From: Streptomyces sp. NBC_00286
GTDB taxonomy: Bacteria; Actinomycetota; Actinomycetes; Streptomycetales; Streptomycetaceae
Direction of reading: 5' to 3'
Length of the DNA: 64,000 bases
Assembly: GCF_036173125.1 (NCBI RefSeq)
Contig: NZ_CP108054.1
Span: 4,836,001-4,900,000, forward strand
The notes under the pieces were generated by a model. That model was not told where the DNA came from, did no database searches, and saw only the letters and a list, made by a program, of their open reading frames with translations. The position numbers and the translations under genes were made by a program. Below, piece by piece: positions 1,285-8,218 of this stretch; the stretch's first letter is position 1, and every line of letters begins with the position of its first letter.

Positions 1285-1676
1285 CGTGCCACCCCCGCTC
1301 CCTCACGCATGTGTCTCGGGCGGGTCGTGGCACGGCTGGTACTGGGAGGCTCACCCATTGCGGGACGTCGCTCCTTCTCGGCTCGGAGGGTCGGGCAGAC
1401 CCTCGGGGGTCGGGAGGGCTGACACACCCTCCGGGCCATCGTAAAAGACGGGCAAAGCTTCCAGGTCATGTCCATTGCCGACCTGACGGGCGGCTTCTTT
1501 CGGACTTTCCCGCCACAGGCTTCAGGAAACAGCCTGGACCGGCCCCGAGAACCCTATGCTTCTACTCGGCTGTAGAGGGAGAACGTGAGGGCTACCCGGG
1601 TTGTTCCCATGCACCCGCACACCCATCCGCCCCCTCGTCACGAGAAACACACGCACATGAAGGAGTGGACGCCGCG
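1285..1676. other. Divergent intergenic region without a gene
   Basis: This 392-base gap separates the CNNM gene (leftward) from spo0M (rightward). It holds the first BlaI-type operator at 1561-1576 and an AAGGAG ribosome site at 1660-1665 for spo0M. Reading frames across it carry no recognisable protein. Confidence 0.7.
1561..1576. promoter_or_regulatory. BlaI-type operator, copy 1 (spo0M)
   Basis: TCTACTCGGCTGTAGA is an inverted repeat of the form TCTAC-N6-GTAGA. Three more copies occur at 2725, 4888 and 5131. It lies 100 bases before the spo0M start. BlaI/MecI repressors bind TACA-N-TGTA dyads, and a BlaI-family gene sits inside the cluster, so it is read as that repressor's site. Confidence 0.7.
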
Positions 1677-2660
1677 ATGGTGTTCAAACGGCTGCTCGGC
1701 TCGCTCGGTGTGGGCGGACCCACGGTGGACACGACCCTCGACCCGGGCCCGGTCCTGCCCGGTGCCGGCCTTACCGGTCAGGTCCATCTCAAGGGCGGCG
1801 ACGCCGACTTCGACATCGAGCACATCACCCTGGAACTGGTGGCGCGGGTCGAGGCCGAACACGAGGACGGGGAGAGCGAAGGAGCAGTCTCCTTCGACCG
1901 GTTCAGCGTCGGCGGCAGCTTCCGGCTGGCCGCGGGCGAGCAGCAGAGCGTGCCGTTCGGCGTGACGTTGCCCTGGGAGACCCCGATCACCGAGTTGTAC
2001 GGGCAACCGCTGGGCATCGTGCTCGGCGTGCGCACCGAGCTGGCGGTGGCCGGCGCGAAGGACAAGGGCGACCTCGACCAGCTCACGGTGCGCCCGCTGC
2101 CCGTGCAGGAGGCGATCCTCGAAGCCCTCGGCCGGCTCGGCTTCGGCTTCCGGTCCGCCGACCTGGAGTACGGCCGCATCGGCGGCACCGGGCAGCAACT
2201 GCCCTTCTACCAGGAGATCGAGCTCACCCCGGCGCCGCAGTACGCGCACGTCATCAACGAGATCGAGCTGACCTTCCTCGCCGCACCGGGCGGCATGGAG
2301 GTCGTCCTGGAGGCGGACAAGCGGGGCGGCTTCTCCTCCGAGGGACACGACGCTCTCACTCGCTTCACGGTCGGCCACCACGATGTCGAGCACCGGGACT
2401 GGAACACGGAAGTCGACGGCTGGATCCGGCAGTTGGCCGAGCACAGGGCCTCGTACGGATCGCACGCCGCGTACGGCTACCACGACCACCACGGCCACCA
2501 CGAGCACCACGACGGCCACCGCTCCGGGCCGGGCATGGGCACCGCCGTCGCCGCCGGTGCGGCGGGTCTCGCGGTCGGTGTCGCCGGCGGCATGGTCGCG
2601 GCCGAAGTCGTCGACGAGGTCGGCGACTTCTTCGAGGGCGATGAGGAAGAGGAAGAGTGA
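1677..2660 (+). CDS. spo0M: Spo0M-like sporulation/stress protein
   Basis: The 327-residue product matches the SpoOM family: the opening MVFKRLLGSLGVGGPTVDT and an arrestin-like beta-sandwich with LPGAGLTGQVHLKGGDADFDIEHI and PFGVTLPWETPI. Known Spo0M proteins are cytoplasmic modulators of sporulation and the cell envelope with an arrestin fold. The C-terminus adds a His-rich stretch (HDHHGHHEHHDGH), a Gly/Ala-rich hydrophobic segment and an acidic tail ending EGDEEEEE. The ATG at 1677 is chosen for AAGGAG 11 bases upstream. A hairpin follows at 2669-2701. An operator at 1561 suggests BlaI control together with terB and terD. Confidence 0.88.
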   Translation: MVFKRLLGSLGVGGPTVDTTLDPGPVLPGAGLTGQVHLKGGDADFDIEHITLELVARVEAEHEDGESEGAVSFDRFSVGGSFRLAAGEQQSVPFGVTLPWETPITELYGQPLGIVLGVRTELAVAGAKDKGDLDQLTVRPLPVQEAILEALGRLGFGFRSADLEYGRIGGTGQQLPFYQEIELTPAPQYAHVINEIELTFLAAPGGMEVVLEADKRGGFSSEGHDALTRFTVGHHDVEHRDWNTEVDGWIRQLAEHRASYGSHAAYGYHDHHGHHEHHDGHRSGPGMGTAVAAGAAGLAVGVAGGMVAAEVVDEVGDFFEGDEEEEE

Positions 2661-2668
2661 TCAGGAGG

Positions 2669-2701
2669 GAGGGGGCGAAGCCCGAGGCGCTCGCCCCCTT
2701 C
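2669..2701 (+). terminator. Hairpin terminator after spo0M
   Basis: AGGGGGCGA (2670-2678) pairs with TCGCCCCCT (2691-2699) around a 12-base loop, just after the spo0M stop and before the terB operator. There is no T-tract, which is usual in Streptomyces. Confidence 0.6.
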
Positions 2702-2724
2702 CTCGTCACCCCACCCTGATAACT

Positions 2725-2740
2725 TCTACATTGCTGTAGA
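2725..2740. promoter_or_regulatory. BlaI-type operator, copy 2 (terB)
   Basis: TCTACATTGCTGTAGA; the dyad extends to a perfect 20-base CTTCTAC...GTAGAAG palindrome at 2723-2742. It lies 61 bases before the terB ATG, in the position expected for promoter occlusion. Confidence 0.75.
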
Positions 2741-2801
2741 AGAATGCGGCGGTCAGGGCCCCTCCGGGCCCGGACCCACCTCTGACACGTACGGAGTTCT
2801 C

Positions 2802-3257
2802 ATGGCCCTGTGGGACCGCATCAAGGATTCTGCATCGACGATGCAGACCCAGCTGATGGCGAAGAAGAACGACCTCAAGAGCGGCGCCTTCCGCGACGCG
2901 AGCATGGCGATGTGCGCGTTGGTGGCCGCCGCCGACGGCACCATCGACCCGGCCGAGCGCCGCCGGGTGGCCCAGCTCATCGCCACCAACGAGGTACTGC
3001 AGAACTTCCCCGCCGACGACCTCCAGCGCCGCTTCGACGACAACCTCAACAAACTGGTCGCCGACTTCGACTTCGGCAAGGTCAGCGTCCTGCAGGAGAT
3101 CGCCAAGGCGAAGAAGAAGCCCGCCGAGGCGCGCGCCGTGATCCAGATCGGCATCGTCATCGGCGGCGCCGACGGCGACTTCGACAAGACCGAGCAGGCC
3201 ATCGTCCGCGAGGCGTGCTTCACGCTCGACCTGCCGCCGCACGAGTTCGACCTCTGA
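2802..3257 (+). CDS. terB: TerB-family tellurite-resistance protein
   Basis: A 151-residue all-helical TerB protein. It contains the paired acidic motifs of the family: VAAADGTIDPAERRRVAQL near residue 50 and IGGADGDFDKTEQAIV near residue 130, thought to bind divalent metal. TerB is a cytosolic protein of the Ter stress system, associated with TerD/TerC, tellurite resistance and membrane stress. The ATG at 2802 opens the canonical MALWDRIKDSASTMQTQL. It has its own BlaI-type operator and converges on the M56 gene, with a shared hairpin between them. Confidence 0.92.
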   Translation: MALWDRIKDSASTMQTQLMAKKNDLKSGAFRDASMAMCALVAAADGTIDPAERRRVAQLIATNEVLQNFPADDLQRRFDDNLNKLVADFDFGKVSVLQEIAKAKKKPAEARAVIQIGIVIGGADGDFDKTEQAIVREACFTLDLPPHEFDL

Positions 3258-3305
3258 GCGAAGGCGGAATGCGTGCCGGGCCGATGTCACGGAGACCTCG
3301 GCCCG

Positions 3306-3349
3306 GGGTCGGGTAGCCCGGAGCATCTCAGCCCCGGCCTACCCGACCC
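3306..3349. terminator. Bidirectional hairpin between terB and the M56 gene
   Basis: GGGTCGGGTAG (3306-3316) and CTACCCGACCC (3339-3349) form an 11-bp perfect stem with a 22-base loop, between two convergent genes. Confidence 0.65.
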
Positions 3350-3449
3350 TCGCCCGGCCTGTCCCGGCACGGTCACCGCCAAGGCCCTGCTCACCGAACT
3401 CGGCCTCCCCTCCGGCCCAGCCTCGACCGCGCACTCGTCGCCGAGCGGG

Positions 3450-4382
3450 TCAGAGCGGTGTCGCCGCGTGCAGGATGAGGACCATCGTCACCGCGGAGTT
3501 CGCTGACGAGAGCGCGGACACCGCGGTTCCCGCCGCCGCGCCCCAGGCGGCCAGGCCCACCGAGGTGAACACCGACGGCCAGCTGCGCATCGCGGGCGGA
3601 GGGCCGAGCAGGGCGGCGACCCGGCGCGGCACCGGGCCCGGCGCGGCAAGAGACGCGAGCGTGGGTACCGGGGTGGCCCGGGAGACCAGGGCCGCCTTGC
3701 CGATCGCGCATGCCACGTCCCTGCGACTGCCGACGGCGTGGGCCGCCTCCTCGTCCGCCCACCGCTCCGCCGTGTAGGACACGGCCGTGCGCAGCGGCCG
3801 CAGGAACGGGTTGGCGCGCGCGGCCAGTTGGACGGCGAGCAGGAACCGATGGTGCCGGGCGGCGAGATGGGCGCGCTCGTGGGCGAACAGCGCGCGCCGT
3901 TCGGCCGGTTCGAGGCGGGACAGCAGGCCGGTGGTCACCACCACCCGACCCCGTCGCCCTTCGGGGAGGGCGTACGCGTACGGCACCTCGTCGGGCAGTA
4001 CGGCCACCTCGGCGCCGGGCAGGCCGGCGAGTGCCCGGTGGGCGCGGCGGCGCACCCGCCCGTGCCGCCACAGCGTGCGGCCGCAGGCCAGCAGCACCGC
4101 GAGCAGCGCCGGAATGGCCGCCTTGCCGGCGACCTCGTCGTACGGCACCGCCTCGCGCACCTCGGGGTCCGACCAGCCGTCGGGCAGCGGGTTGCCGGGC
4201 AGTTGCGCGGTACCGACCACCATCAGTAGCCCCAGGCACACGGTGCTGCACACCGCCATCACCACGGCCAGCCCGGTCAGCAGCCGGGTGGCGGTCCGTG
4301 GATGCAGCCGCTGCTCGGCCAGGCGGGCGATCGGCCATGCCGTCAACGGCAGGACCAGCGGCAGAAAGACGAACACCCCCAT
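3450..4382 (-). CDS. M56-family membrane metallopeptidase (BlaR1-like partner of BlaI)
   Basis: The 310-residue protein has hydrophobic N-terminal helices (VFLPLVLPLTAW, LAVVMAVCSTVCLGLLMVV, AAIPALLAVLLAC), then a cytoplasmic zinc-protease core with the HExxH motif in ALFAHERAHLAARHHRFL near residue 165 and the downstream AERWADEEAA acidic site. It ends with another hydrophobic segment. M56 proteins paired with BlaI cleave or inactivate the repressor on sensing a signal. No penicillin-binding sensor domain is present, so the signal is probably not a beta-lactam. It starts 6 bases after the blaI stop, in the same operon. Confidence 0.87.
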   Translation of the reverse strand: MGVFVFLPLVLPLTAWPIARLAEQRLHPRTATRLLTGLAVVMAVCSTVCLGLLMVVGTAQLPGNPLPDGWSDPEVREAVPYDEVAGKAAIPALLAVLLACGRTLWRHGRVRRRAHRALAGLPGAEVAVLPDEVPYAYALPEGRRGRVVVTTGLLSRLEPAERRALFAHERAHLAARHHRFLLAVQLAARANPFLRPLRTAVSYTAERWADEEAAHAVGSRRDVACAIGKAALVSRATPVPTLASLAAPGPVPRRVAALLGPPPAMRSWPSVFTSVGLAAWGAAAGTAVSALSSANSAVTMVLILHAATPL

Positions 4383-4388
4383 GAGGCT

Positions 4389-4778
4389 TCAGTCTTCCCT
4401 CTCGCCCTTGGCTCGACCCAGCAGTTCGCGCAGCAGTCGTTCGTCGTCCGGTTGCAGGGAGGTGACGAAGCTGGCCAGCACCGCCTCCCGGTCACTTTCG
4501 GCGTCGAGCACCTTGCGCATCTTGTGCGCGGCCAAGCCCGCCTGGTCCGACGCCGGGGTCCAGGCGAAGGACCGGCCGGCGCGCTCGCGGGTGACCGCGC
4601 CCTTGGCCAGCAGCCGGGTGAGGATCGTGATCACCGTCGTATAGGCGAGGTCTTCGCCGAGGCGTTCCTGCACCCAGCCCGCGCTCGCCGGGCCGTCCGC
4701 CTCGCTCAGGGCCGACAGGACGAGCGCCTCGAGTTCACCCTGCCCCCGCCGGCGGGGACGCTGCCGCTGATCCGTCAC
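4389..4778 (-). CDS. blaI: BlaI/MecI/CopY-family transcriptional repressor
   Basis: From the GTG at 4778 (GGAAGGGAG ribosome site just upstream) the product is 129 residues, typical for BlaI. The winged helix reads GELEALVLSALSEADGPASAGWVQERLG then LAYTTVITILTRLLAKGAVTRERAGRSFAW; the C-terminal helices form the dimer part. BlaI proteins bind TACA-N-TGTA dyads and are released by proteolysis. Four such dyads occur within 3.6 kb, upstream of spo0M, terB, terD and this gene. A longer reading frame extends upstream to 4922 but would include the operator and lacks conserved sequence. Confidence 0.9.
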   Translation of the reverse strand: MTDQRQRPRRRGQGELEALVLSALSEADGPASAGWVQERLGEDLAYTTVITILTRLLAKGAVTRERAGRSFAWTPASDQAGLAAHKMRKVLDAESDREAVLASFVTSLQPDDERLLRELLGRAKGERED

Positions 4779-4887
4779 GCTCTGTCTCCCTTCCGCCGAC
4801 CCCGAATTCACGGGCGGTCCATCGTATCGACGACCCACAGCCGGCCACCGCGCCACGACCGGTGCTCCATCGCCCCTCACCACAACA

Positions 4888-4903
4888 TCTACATGACTGT
4901 AGA
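4888..4903. promoter_or_regulatory. BlaI-type operator, copy 3 (blaI autoregulation)
   Basis: TCTACATGACTGTAGA, 110 bases upstream of the blaI GTG. It probably gives feedback control of the blaI-M56 operon. It also overlaps the ATG of a small rightward reading frame (4893-5048). Confidence 0.7.
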
Positions 4904-5048
4904 AGTTACGCCACCTGGGCAACTTCCCTGCCCCACCGACGGCAACAACACAAGGAGATTCGACGCCGCCACCTGGGGCTCGGCCATCGCGGGCCCACTC
5001 GTCCCGCTGATCGGCTACCGCATCCTCTTCGGCAACTCCCGTGAATGA
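4893..5048 (+). CDS. Possible 51-residue small membrane peptide
   Basis: The ATG lies inside operator copy 3. The peptide has a polar N-terminus with one Cys and a hydrophobic tail (WGSAIAGPLVPLIGYRILFG). A strong AAGGAG at 4952-4957 falls inside the frame but has no start codon at the right distance, so it may be the relic of a gene whose start was lost. No family is recognised. It could equally be non-coding. Confidence 0.22.
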   Translation: MTVEVTPPGQLPCPTDGNNTRRFDAATWGSAIAGPLVPLIGYRILFGNSRE

Positions 5049-5130
5049 CCGGCCACTTCACCGCGCCCACCACTTCTCGGCCATACGCGACACGGCCAAC
5101 CTTCGAGGCTACGTAACCCCTTCCTCGCCT

Positions 5131-5146
5131 TCTACAGTGTTGTAGA
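5131..5146. promoter_or_regulatory. BlaI-type operator, copy 4 (terD)
   Basis: TCTACAGTGTTGTAGA, 81 bases upstream of the terD GTG, fits the consensus TCTACA-N4-TGTAGA. Confidence 0.7.
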
Positions 5147-5160
5147 TTTTTATCCCGGGT

Positions 5161-5196
5161 CCGCCGGGTCCGCCGGGTCCGCCGGGTCCGCCGGGC
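5161..5196. repeat. Four tandem 9-bp repeats in the terD leader
   Basis: CCGCCGGGT is repeated three times, then once with a changed last base, between operator copy 4 and the terD ribosome site. It would be transcribed as a G+C-rich leader. No function can be assigned. Confidence 0.6.
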
Positions 5197-5227
5197 CCTG
5201 ACCTGACGCATCGAGAAGGAGTACGCA

Positions 5228-5803
5228 GTGGGAGTTTCCCTGGCCAAGGGTGGCAATGTCTCGCTCAACAAGGAGGCGCCGGGTCTGACCGCCGTCCTGG
5301 TCGGTCTGGGCTGGGATGTGCGCAGCACCACCGGCACCGACTTCGACCTCGACGCATCCGCGCTGCTGCTCGACACTTCCGGCAAAGTGCTCTCCGACCA
5401 GCACTTCGTCTTCTACAACAACCTGACCAGCCCGGACGGTTCGGTCGAGCACACCGGCGACAACCTCACCGGTGAGGGCGAGGGCGACGACGAGGCCGTC
5501 AAGGTGAACCTCGCCACCGTGCCCGCAGAGATCGACCGGGTCGTTTTCCCGGTGTCCATCCACGACGCCGAGAACCGCGGCCAGAGCTTCGGCCAGGTCC
5601 GCAACGCCTTCATCCGCGTCGTCAACCAGGCCGACGGCCAGGAACTGGCCCGCTACGACCTCTCCGAGGACGCCTCGACGGAGACCGCGATGGTCTTCGG
5701 CGAGCTGTACCGCAACGGTGCGGAGTGGAAGTTCCGCGCGGTCGGTCAGGGTTACGCGTCCGGCCTGGCCGGGATCGCCTCCGACTTCGGCGTCAACGTC
5801 TGA
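5228..5803 (+). CDS. terD: TerD-family stress protein
   Basis: The 191-residue product is canonical Ter[31 protein letters not shown] at the start, the calcium-binding acidic loop [12 protein letters not shown] near residue 40, and [21 protein letters not shown]. TerD proteins are cytoplasmic beta-sandwich Ca2+-binding proteins linked to tellurite and oxidative stress resistance; in Streptomyces they also affect differentiation. The GTG at 5228 has AGAAGGAG 8 bases upstream. Operator copy 4 controls the promoter, and a hairpin at 5812 follows. Confidence 0.95.
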
Positions 5804-5993: not shown

Positions 5994-6578
5994 ATGTCGG
6001 TCAACATGACCAAGGGTCAGCAGATCAGCCTGAACAAGGCCGACGGCAGCGCCCTGACCTCCGTCCGGATGGGCCTGGGCTGGCAGGCCGCGCCCCGCAA
6101 GGGCTTCCTCGCCAAGCTCGCCGGAGGCGGAGACATCGACCTGGACGCCTCGGCCGTGCTCTTCGCCGCCGGGCAGCCGGTGGACGTCGTCTTCTTCCAG
6201 CACCTGGTCAGTGATGACGGCTCCGTCCGGCACACCGGGGACAATCTCACCGGCGGGGCCGGCTCCGGAGGCGACGACGAGGCCGTCCTCGTCGATCTGG
6301 CCCGCGTCCCCGCACACGTCGACCAGATCGTCTTCACCGTCAACTCCTTCACCGGCCAGACCTTCGCCGAAGTGCAGAACGCGTTCTGCCGCCTGGTCGA
6401 CGAGGCCACCGGAGCCGAACTGGCCCGCTACACGCTCACCGGCGGTGGGAAGCACACCGCCCAGATCATGGCCAAGGTCCACCGCACCGGCGGCAGCTGG
6501 CAGATGAAGGCCATCGGCGAACCCGCCACCGGCCGCACCTTCCAGGACCTGCTGCCGTCCATCGCACCCCACCTGTAG
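5994..6578 (+). CDS. terD: TerD-family protein, second copy
   Basis: The 194-residue paralogue of the preceding terD starts MSVNMTKGQQISLNKADG and keeps the acidic loop DIDLDASAVLF and the DNLTG motif. A Lys-rich insertion (APRKGFLAKLAGGGD) precedes the metal loop, marking it as a divergent subtype (TerX/CABP-like). The ATG at 5994 is preceded by GAAGGAG with a longish 13-base spacing; the ATG at 6006 is an alternative. It lacks its own operator dyad, so it may have a separate promoter or be read through from terD. Confidence 0.92.
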   Translation: MSVNMTKGQQISLNKADGSALTSVRMGLGWQAAPRKGFLAKLAGGGDIDLDASAVLFAAGQPVDVVFFQHLVSDDGSVRHTGDNLTGGAGSGGDDEAVLVDLARVPAHVDQIVFTVNSFTGQTFAEVQNAFCRLVDEATGAELARYTLTGGGKHTAQIMAKVHRTGGSWQMKAIGEPATGRTFQDLLPSIAPHL

Positions 6579-6655: not shown

Positions 6656-6934
6656 ATGTTCGGACTCAGCGAGCTCGCGATCATCCTTATCGTCGTCATA
6701 GCCGTCCTCGCCGCCAAGAAACTCCCCGACCTCGCCCGCTCGGCGGGCAAGTCGGCGCGCATCCTCAAGGCGGAGGCCAGGGCGCTCAAGGAGGAGGAGC
6801 AGGGTACGGCCGGGGAGCAGGCGGCCCCTCGCGTGATCCAGGGCGAGACCGGCGCACCCGGCCCAGCGGCCACCGATGCGCCCCGGTCCGCCACGCGACC
6901 GGGCGGCGAAGAGCCTCCGCGCGCCCAGGGCTGA
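6656..6934 (+). CDS. tatA: TatA/E twin-arginine translocase subunit
   Basis: The 92-residue product has one N-terminal membrane helix (MFGLSELAIILIVVIAVLAAKKLPDLARSAGKSARI), the FG hinge motif, an amphipathic helix and a polar acidic/Pro-rich tail. TatA forms the Tat export pore in the membrane. The AGAAAGGA ribosome site is good. Streptomyces usually carries a main tatA near tatC elsewhere; this copy stands alone beside the Ter genes and may be an accessory paralogue. Confidence 0.9.
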   Translation: MFGLSELAIILIVVIAVLAAKKLPDLARSAGKSARILKAEARALKEEEQGTAGEQAAPRVIQGETGAPGPAATDAPRSATRPGGEEPPRAQG

Positions 6935-6946
6935 CGCACACGGTGT

Positions 6947-7207
6947 TCATACACCCAGGGCGCGCAGCAGCATCGGCAGGGAGTGGTGCAACTCCCGTTC
7001 TCCGTAGGCCGGATGGTGGGTGCCGGAGTGGAAGTGTCCGGTCACCGGGGCGCCGAGCCGGCGCAGCCGGGCATCCAGGGACCGGGTGAGGTCGTGGATG
7101 ACGGCTTCCGCCGGGTCGTACGCGCTGCCCGGCGGGTCGAGCGGGCCTGGGGTGCCGTTCCCGGTCGAGAGGTAGACGGGGGTGTGGCGCAGGCGCTTGG
7201 CCAGATG
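6947..7207 (-). pseudogene. Esterase C-terminal relic
   Basis: Leftward translation gives LAKRLRHTPVYLSTGNGTPGPLD, then FHSGTHHPAYGERELHHSLPMLLRALGV and a TGA at 6947-6949. This is the C-terminal quarter of a secreted esterase/mycolyltransferase-like alpha/beta hydrolase: the last beta strands and the catalytic-His region. The sequence joins abruptly, in a different frame, to the response-regulator fragment at about 7205, so the gene lost its N-terminus by a deletion. Confidence 0.75.
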
Positions 7208-7377
7208 CGGATGTCCATCAGGACGACGTCGGGCCGGGTCAGCCGCACCGCCTCCACGGCCTGCCGCCCGTCGGCCGCCTCCGCGACCACCACCAGGTCG
7301 TCGGTCAGGTCCAGCAGGGCGCGAAAGCCCGCCCGTACGACGGTCTGATCGTCCGCGAGGACCACACGCACTGTCAC
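7205..7377 (-). pseudogene. Response regulator receiver-domain relic
   Basis: Starting from a GTG at 7377 the frame reads VRVVLADDQTVVRAGFRALL, continuing to VVLMDIR, the phospho-acceptor region of a NarL/LuxR-type regulator. After the DIR motif, where MPG is expected, the sequence switches to esterase. The rest of the receiver and the DNA-binding domain are missing. The start overlaps the histidine-kinase stop by 4 bases, so this was a normal kinase-regulator operon before the deletion. Confidence 0.8.
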
Positions 7378-8218
7378 GGTCGCTCCCCTCCGTTGTCGCC
7401 GCGGGCCGGGAGTTCGGCCCGTACCCGGTAACCGCCGCCGGGCAGCGGCCCGTAGTCGATCCTGCCCCCGGCCGCCGCCGCCCGCTCCCGCATCCCTGCC
7501 GGCCCGAAACCGCCCGAGGCCGGTGGCGTGGCCGACGGACCGTCGTCGACGACCTCCACCGTCAGCCGACCGTCCCTCCGGACGACGGACACCGCCGCGT
7601 GCCGGGCGCCGGAGTGCTTGACGACGTTCGTGAGTGCTTCCTGGACGATCCGGTACACGGCGAGCCCCACCACCGGCGATACACCGTCCGGCTCTCCCTC
7701 CCGCCGGAGCGTGATCTCCACATCGCCCCCCGCGAACCGGTCGACCAGCTCGGCGAGCCGCTCGAGCCCCGGCGCCGGTTCCACCGGATCCCCCTCCGGC
7801 TCGCGCAGGACGGTGACGGTGGCCCGCAGCTCCCGTACGCCTCCTTGCCCGCCTCCCGCACCTGGCGCATCGCCGCCCGGGCCACCTCGGGCTTCACGTC
7901 GAACGCGTCCAGCGCCACGCCCGCCTGCACGGTCATCACCGCGACCGTGTGCGCGACGACGTCGTGCAGCTCACGGGCGATCCGCACCCGCTCCTCACGC
8001 ACCCGACGCGCCGCCTCCCGTTCCCGGTCCTCCTCCGCACGGACGGCCCGGGCGGCGTACTCGGCCTGCAACTGCCGCCGCGTACGCACCACTTCACCCA
8101 GCAGCAGCGGCACCAGCGGCCACAGCATCTCCAGTACCGCCAGCCCCTGCGGGTTCACCACGTCGTTGCCGTATGAGCGCCCATGCCCGAGCGCGTACGA
8201 CAGCGGGAGTACCCGCAT
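7374..8218 (-). pseudogene. Histidine kinase, truncated and frameshifted
   Basis: The upper part reads GQGLAVLEML-type membrane sequence, then the HisKA_3 core VRIARELHDVVAHTVAVMTVQAG. The frame is lost near 7838 after QVREAGKEA. The continuing kinase sequence (LRATVTVLREPEGDP, YRIVQEALTNVVKHSGARH, VVDDGPS) is found in another frame to the stop at 7374. A single indel therefore splits the gene. The N-terminal membrane region is also shortened: only one of the usual four to five helices remains, after a possible start remnant RPWFFLDR near 8250. It is inactive as it stands. Confidence 0.82.

Follow-up and report, generated by a model that had tools for sequence, protein, structure and literature searches.

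The closest described relatives of the system reported here are the BlaI-BlaR1 and MecI-MecR1 pairs of Staphylococcus and Bacillus licheniformis, in which a Penicillinase_R repressor and an M56 gluzincin membrane protease share one operon; the BlaI-M56 pair is known mainly as a penicillin alarm. Sensor-less BlaI-M56 pairs are known in mycobacteria. Many Streptomyces carry TerD, TerB and Spo0M genes and, to our knowledge, what induces them and what they do is unclear. At the 5' end of a 64,000-nt window (the whole stretch of DNA analyzed) of Streptomyces sp. NBC_00286 (NZ_CP108054.1, whole genome 9,853,519 bases, labelled G000 here), spo0M and terB on the + strand are followed by a blaI-protease operon on the - strand and then by terD, terD2 and a tatA-like gene on the + strand. 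The initial annotation of this DNA had read four copies of TCTAC-N6-GTAGA, upstream of spo0M, terB, blaI and terD, as a local BlaI-type regulon over Ter stress genes. All four copies are present as exact matches at 1561, 2725, 4888 and 5131, and it appears from sequence comparison that a sensor-less BlaI-M56 pair controls conserved Ter and cell-envelope stress genes via one DNA site in many Streptomyces. The dyads and the genes of the locus are as follows.

1561..1576, + strand: putative operator of spo0M, TCTACTCGGCTGTAGA, exact TCTAC-N6-GTAGA
2725..2740, + strand: putative operator of terB, TCTACATTGCTGTAGA, exact TCTAC-N6-GTAGA
4888..4903, - strand: putative operator of the blaI-protease operon, TCTACAGTCATGTAGA on the - strand, exact TCTAC-N6-GTAGA
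5131..5146, + strand: putative operator of terD, TCTACAGTGTTGTAGA, exact TCTAC-N6-GTAGA
1677-2660, + strand: spo0M, PF07070 Spo0M (Pfam E 4.1e-79), putative target
2802-3257, + strand: terB, PF05099 (Pfam E 2e-26), putative target
3450-4382, - strand: BlaR1-type (M56) membrane metalloprotease without a penicillin-binding sensor (Pfam scan, residues, model)
4389-4778, - strand: blaI, Penicillinase_R repressor, PF03965 (Pfam scan, structure match)
5228-5803, + strand: terD, PF02342 (Pfam E 2.2e-87), putative target
5994-6578, + strand: second TerD-domain gene, terD2 (Pfam scan)
6656-6934, + strand: tatA-like gene (Pfam scan)

The distances from dyad to start codon are 108 bases for spo0M, 69 for terB, 89 for terD and 117 for blaI, which starts with GTG, has GGAAGGGAGA upstream of its start and is separated by 6 bases, counted from the end of its stop codon, from the ATG of the protease. 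Both TerD- and TerB-domain genes of a Ter stress cluster are present at the locus according to Pfam. The terD2 gene, for which the pattern search found no exact dyad of its own in this genome, probably shares the terD transcript, judging by spacing and strand, and the tatA-like gene is probably carried on it as well. Tandem GGGTCCGCC repeats were also seen at 5153-5200, between the terD operator and the terD start codon.

Within the window, TCTAC-N6-GTAGA had 4 exact matches vs 0 in 100 shuffles of the window, and these four were the only exact matches in the whole genome. A first-order Markov estimate made from the window predicts about 0.9 matches genome-wide and 0.0003 per 3.6 kb, and the pattern read backwards occurred 5 times in the source genome vs 4 times forward. 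Because about one match per genome is expected and the backwards control gave 5, the count of four alone is unremarkable and was dropped as evidence; in the other genomes searched the backwards pattern often matched the forward frequency as well (untallied). The striking point is that the four dyads all lie inside 3.6 kb, each upstream of a gene. An extension to near matches in the source genome was also dropped, as CTACA-N4-TGTAG with one mismatch gave 15 extra places and its backwards control 46. A tighter core, TCTACA-N4-TGTAGA, fits three of the four dyads, the spo0M dyad being without the inner A, and this position also varies at the spo0M sites of relatives (A 16, T 15, G 5; n=36).

It is this 12-base core, not the 5+5 pattern, that separates signal from background. 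Across the 295 genomes compared within the genus we found 458 core sites, where chance would give an estimated 0.023 per genome and the backwards control gave 8 sites in the same genomes. The presence of a core site followed the best BlaI match of the genome: 92/94 genomes with E <1e-50, 56/77 with E from 1e-40 to 1e-50, 33/56 with E from 1e-20 to 1e-40, and 2/68 with no BlaI match better than 1e-20. The Fisher p of 2e-36 over the 295 genomes ignores relatedness and was not relied on. Outside the genus, 15 of 268 genomes of the class had a core site (16 sites). Since 13 of these sites (L247-L259, the L numbers denoting stretches fetched from the genomes compared, which carry G numbers) had no regulon families nearby and a 14th (G445, L293) lay at a DedA-type blaI, no Ter regulon is claimed outside the genus.

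To see which genes carry the site in relatives, 80 Streptomyces and Kitasatospora loci were fetched by BlaI match from named genomes. Genes were counted if the match started no more than 30 residues from the query start (the spo0M query being 1677-2657) and 150 bases upstream were present, with the site within 300 bases of the gene start. An exact site was present upstream of terD in 37/39, spo0M in 29/33, terB in 22/26 and blaI in 59/79, and with one mismatch allowed 39/39 terD and 31/33 spo0M genes had a site. Pfam placed further target families under LytR_cpsA_psr, Acyl_transf_3, Transgly_assoc and Ion_trans, and in these loci exact sites were found at 5/6 Transgly_assoc, 3/3 ion-channel, 8/15 LytR-CpsA-Psr and 3/10 acyltransferase genes, at 17/41 tatA and at 13/49 CNNM genes, the CNNM counts probably reflecting a site in common with a divergent spo0M. 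None was found at terD2 (0/5), PAP2 (0/1) or the protease (0/76). In a separate count by gene family over the same loci, 30 of the 40 largest families were without any site. Thus the motif recurs upstream of ter genes next to blaI in other Streptomyces; it might have been absent from orthologous ter clusters or spread over many unrelated genes, and the opposite was found, so that the proposal of Ter stress genes as regulon targets is strongly supported by comparison, the sites following ter, spo0M and blaI genes.

A second set comprised 80 stretches taken from 17 genomes. These genomes had been chosen chiefly because their site counts were high or listed in full, so the set is not random, and some listed sites were left out of it, e.g., G118 3491627, G118 6555442, G196 C2, G196 C20, G019 C3 and G090 9235630. 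In this set 49 of 63 core sites and 21 of 44 non-core sites lay upstream of a regulon family; for positions drawn at random from these stretches the figure was 11%. Of the core sites, 12 of the 63 were without an assigned target gene and 2 further ones had a CNNM gene only. The targets elsewhere lie either inside the BlaI cluster or distant from BlaI. The word local in the initial annotation therefore holds for the source genome, and in several others the targets are scattered and take in more envelope genes, as in G190, where terD, the genes for a Transgly_assoc protein and an ion channel, and a spo0M-terB pair lie apart from one another and each have a site.

Three further protein families were seen downstream of core dyads. 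In two genomes, genes of a short family (73-81 aa core) follow the dyad at three places (L195:2337-2558, L206:9275-9520, L208:1512-1928), and a secreted-looking protein of 356-375 aa has it upstream in two genomes (L187:824-1951, L232:823-1893); each of these is a possible extra regulon member. A small family of 82-91 aa, 82% identical, likewise has the dyad upstream in two genomes (L169:1925-2200, L211:1698-1946). For each of the three, the one member scanned had no Pfam match.

Across 265 site-gene pairs (a site between two divergent genes being counted twice, and the ten arm bases being fixed by the search), the arms, the inner A (86%) and the inner T (97%) hold most of the information and the flanks less; the N4 centre is variable and the arms are common to the sites. 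The median distance from site to start codon is 64-84 bases for spo0M, terB, terD, terD2, blaI, LytR-CpsA-Psr, tatA and Transgly_assoc genes, and 109 bases for ion-channel genes. On the 5' side of the spo0M site CCCTATGCT is conserved (at least 80% per base, 36 spo0M sites), and in the source genome the -10-like TATGCT (1555-1560) abuts the dyad, the terB dyad being preceded by GATAACT (2718-2724); spo0M thus clearly has a -10-like hexamer immediately before its site, and terB is likely to have one. Since comparison of site flanks across relatives brought out no conserved -10 or -35 for the terD and blaI sites, an operator over the start site can be read from the sequence for spo0M at most.

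The promoter of blaI itself carries TACA/TGTA half-sites, as in the BlaI/MecI/CopY family. When blaI upstream regions were searched for TACA-Nn-TGTA with n from 0 to 8, only n=4 occurred, namely in 84 of 112 distinct upstream regions of blaI genes with at least 65% identity, in 6 of 20 at 48-65% and in 2 of 6 below 48%, and the two-base family spacer TACANNTGTA was absent from the blaI upstream regions examined. For CopY the published operator, ascribed to BlaI and MecI as well, has n=2 (PMC7253601). The spacer of the site described here thus exceeds that of the published family operator by two bases, and calling the site BlaI-type is right for the half-site and not for the spacer.

Other dyads on the same half-site exist. 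Among the matches listed from a search of 41 genomes, 75 sites of the form TCTACA-Nn-TGTAGA (n from 0 to 12), drawn from part of these genomes, included 40 with n=4, 17 with n=2, 16 with n=10-11, one with n=1 and one with n=5, and the several spacer classes therefore look like separate classes. Paired TCTACA-N2-TGTAGA dyads, 29-44 bases apart, occur in the source genome (G000:C1:2167338-2167383, L266) and in G001, G003, G009, G017, G033 and G039; the source-genome pair lies just upstream of an FAD-monooxygenase-like gene (by eye), away from all four BlaI-family matches. The long palindrome TCTACACCACTCAGTGGTGTAGA (spacer 10-11), found at G000:C1:6342225-6342247 and at single places in several relatives, is apparently a conserved site of another regulator.

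BlaI is a protein of 129 aa with zero cysteines, whose winged-helix domain matches Penicillinase_R (PF03965) with 87.4 bits vs a cut-off of 22.6 and which matches the structures 2g9w (nearest solved, E 2.6e-7) and 1p6r. Its F104 is invariant where aligned in 115 + 20 unique BlaI sequences, and an alignment by eye places it, presumably, at the cleavage position of the staphylococcal repressors. The protease has HERAH at 168-172, E206-x3-D210 and R253-R254, which agree with the HEXXH, EXXXD and Arg given for the BlaR1 gluzincin site (PMC9834060). The only Pfam match at E 0.001 or better was M48 (PF01435), and the M56 model was not matched; nevertheless, the database names of relatives and structural comparison of the model indicate an M56/BlaR1-like protease, as the initial annotation had it. 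The modelled fold is BlaR1-like, with transmembrane helices and the extracellular loop EL1 (residues ~60-82) between helices 2 and 3, and this loop is the most conserved segment of the protease. The protein ends at residue 310 after the last helix and neither the Pfam scan nor the model contained a penicillin-binding-protein (PBP)-type domain, which bears out the earlier proposal of a protease without a penicillin sensor. EL1 or the membrane helices would be the likeliest sensor.

We consider an autoregulated BlaI-M56 repressor-protease switch over a Ter and envelope regulon, with the protease as release arm, to be the best account of the locus, with a probability of roughly 0.76. On the comparative evidence, a BlaI dimer would bind TCTACA-N4-TGTAGA in the promoter regions and hold down spo0M, terB, terD (together with terD2 and tatA) and the operon of blaI and the protease itself. 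By homology with BlaR1, an envelope signal would lead the membrane metalloprotease to cleave or otherwise inactivate BlaI, the release probably being proteolytic. This would free the Ter and Spo0M genes and, in relatives, also LytR-CpsA-Psr, ion-channel, acyltransferase and small membrane-protein genes, and newly made BlaI would reset the switch.

For the release step the main rival, which we regard as unlikely and still worth weighing, keeps the same BlaI regulon and lets a small ligand such as a cytoplasmic peptidoglycan fragment free BlaI, the protease making this ligand or acting otherwise. The envelope genes within the regulon would suit such a ligand, and in Bacillus licheniformis the gamma-D-Glu-mesoA2pm dipeptide inactivates BlaI, with BlaR1 proposed as its source (PMC3305447). 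However, cleavage of S. aureus BlaI by BlaR1 is discussed on structural grounds (PMC9834060), and both the catalytic residues and the Phe presumed to be P1' (placed by eye) are conserved here, which speaks against this rival.

A different transcription factor might bind the dyad, with blaI merely one of its targets. This we hold to be improbable, even though 18 of the 79 blaI genes are without a site and no close BlaI was detected in the two BlaI-poor genomes with core sites, G136 and G245, where terB and spo0M (in G245 also an ion-channel gene) are preceded by exact sites. In these two genomes BlaI and the protease were absent from the fetched neighbourhoods, and the scan of the genomes had scored no more than 14 out of 31 and 36 candidates from the first look. 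Against it, core sites follow BlaI similarity over the 295 genomes, the TACA/TGTA half-site is that of the BlaI/MecI/CopY family (PMC7253601), and distant BlaI with other neighbours can carry the N4 dyad at their own promoter (8/26 below 65% identity). The altered site of G085, a genome with no BlaI match at 1e-8, points the same way: its terB is 91% identical to the source terB, and 3 of the 10 dyad bases are changed at the same place between similar flanks; in this one case, the site seems to have decayed once the repressor was lost. Among the 68 BlaI-poor genomes, 30 of which were covered, 17 other TerB matches showed no dyad in 250 bases even with 2 mismatches allowed; these are 46-61% identical, save one partial match at 74%. 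That the dyads are terminators, promoters or other structural or chance repeats is very improbable, as the short palindromes, the chance expectation of about one 5+5 pattern per genome and the 12/63 core sites without an assigned target are outweighed by the variable N4 centre between shared arms, the consistent medians of 64-84 bases before start codons (ion channel 109) and the 49/63 core sites at a regulon family vs 11% of random positions.

A sister BlaI-M56 pair was observed beside a DedA/VTT-domain gene in L182, L192, L198, L201, L210, L223, L228, L238 and L293. The sister BlaI is about 47-58% identical to the source BlaI and, in those at 50-58%, divergent from the DedA/VTT gene, with a dyad between them that is often TCTACTGAACTGTAGA-like or tandem, and PAP2-domain genes with sites were found in L191, L229 and L237. 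G445, which belongs to a different family of the class, has such a blaI-protease pair beside a short DedA-like frame, with a UppP-like gene 0.3 kb beyond (by eye). Of the 84 sequences in a BlaI tree, all 53 that are linked to ter fell into one 63-tip clade without a DedA-linked member (support 0.76), and 6 of the 9 DedA/PAP2-linked ones fell into another clade (support 0.97). DedA and PAP2 proteins act in undecaprenyl-lipid recycling, so this branch looks like one for undecaprenyl recycling, and the envelope emerges as the common theme of both branches.

More generally, we suggest tentatively, at a little less than even odds, that sensor-less BlaR1-type proteases serve as general Streptomyces envelope-stress receptors, EL1 replacing the penicillin domain, and act via BlaI reading the 4-base-spacer operator in at least two branches, one for Ter/Spo0M/LytR-CpsA-Psr/ion-channel genes and one for DedA/PAP2 genes (likely undecaprenyl-lipid recycling). 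If this were true, the Ter proteins, whose cellular role has long been open, would belong to the response to cell-envelope damage, the BlaI-M56 pair would have a wider role as an envelope-stress relay, and EL1, a signalling loop in BlaR1, might itself be a sensor. The conserved operator, together with its defined repressor and a candidate receptor in the membrane, would offer a direct handle on Ter and Spo0M induction.

Adjoining the cluster, at 7042-8218 of the window (- strand), pieces that by eye resemble a response regulator and a sensor kinase lie in overlapping frames and suggest a broken two-component system. Another BlaI-family gene of the source genome, G000:C1:9815812-9816144 (L115), lies near the chromosome end alongside an M56-like frame and a CopZ-type metal-binding-like frame (by eye), and exact dyads are absent there.

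When the locus is set beside known systems, the sigmaE envelope-stress regulon of S. coelicolor resembles it in tying a Ter-type gene, sco2368, which we take to be of the TerD type, to envelope stress. That regulon includes sco2368 as a 'hypothetical protein' whose product rises with vancomycin; it differs in being under sigma-factor control with a different promoter motif, and BlaI is absent from the main text of the report (PMC6767563). Under acid stress, TerD, TerZ and an HtpX-annotated protein are raised in S. albulus (PMC7317143), which is a lead only, as they could not be mapped to the cluster. PMC8131028, in its available part, names BlaI, tellurite and Streptomyces in unrelated contexts. 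Among the open-licence matches listed, judged by title and start of abstract and with most subscription journals outside their scope, neither BlaI over ter or spo0M genes nor a BlaI operator with a 4-base spacer is described. The CopY/CopR copper repressors belong to the same family with the half-site RNYKACANNTGTMRNY (PMC7253601), but they are metal-responsive via C-terminal CXC motifs and have an N2 spacer, and the BlaI described here is cysteine-free.

Nearer still is the mycobacterial BlaI (Rv1846c) with its M56 partner, whose structure 2g9w, which we take to be that of Mycobacterium tuberculosis BlaI, is the nearest solved one to our BlaI; its partner Rv1845c is presumably also without a sensor. 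The targets reported for mycobacterial BlaI are blaC, sigC and ATP-synthase genes, and in the available parts of these reports, unlike here, ter and spo0M are not among them (PMC8265638, PMC12565901). With BlaI-BlaR1 and MecI-MecR1 the locus has in common, besides the operon, a site at its own promoter, the TACA/TGTA half-sites, the catalytic residues and EL1 between helices 2 and 3; it differs in a protease of 310 aa without the C-terminal penicillin-binding sensor, in that 0/4 sites lie at a beta-lactamase or PBP gene, and in a spacer of 4 bases where theirs is 2. Thus BlaI, M56 proteases, sensor-less mycobacterial pairs and Ter genes were known already, and what is new, within the same class of mechanism, is the target set, the wider spacing of the operator and a receptor that lacks the defining sensor of BlaR1.

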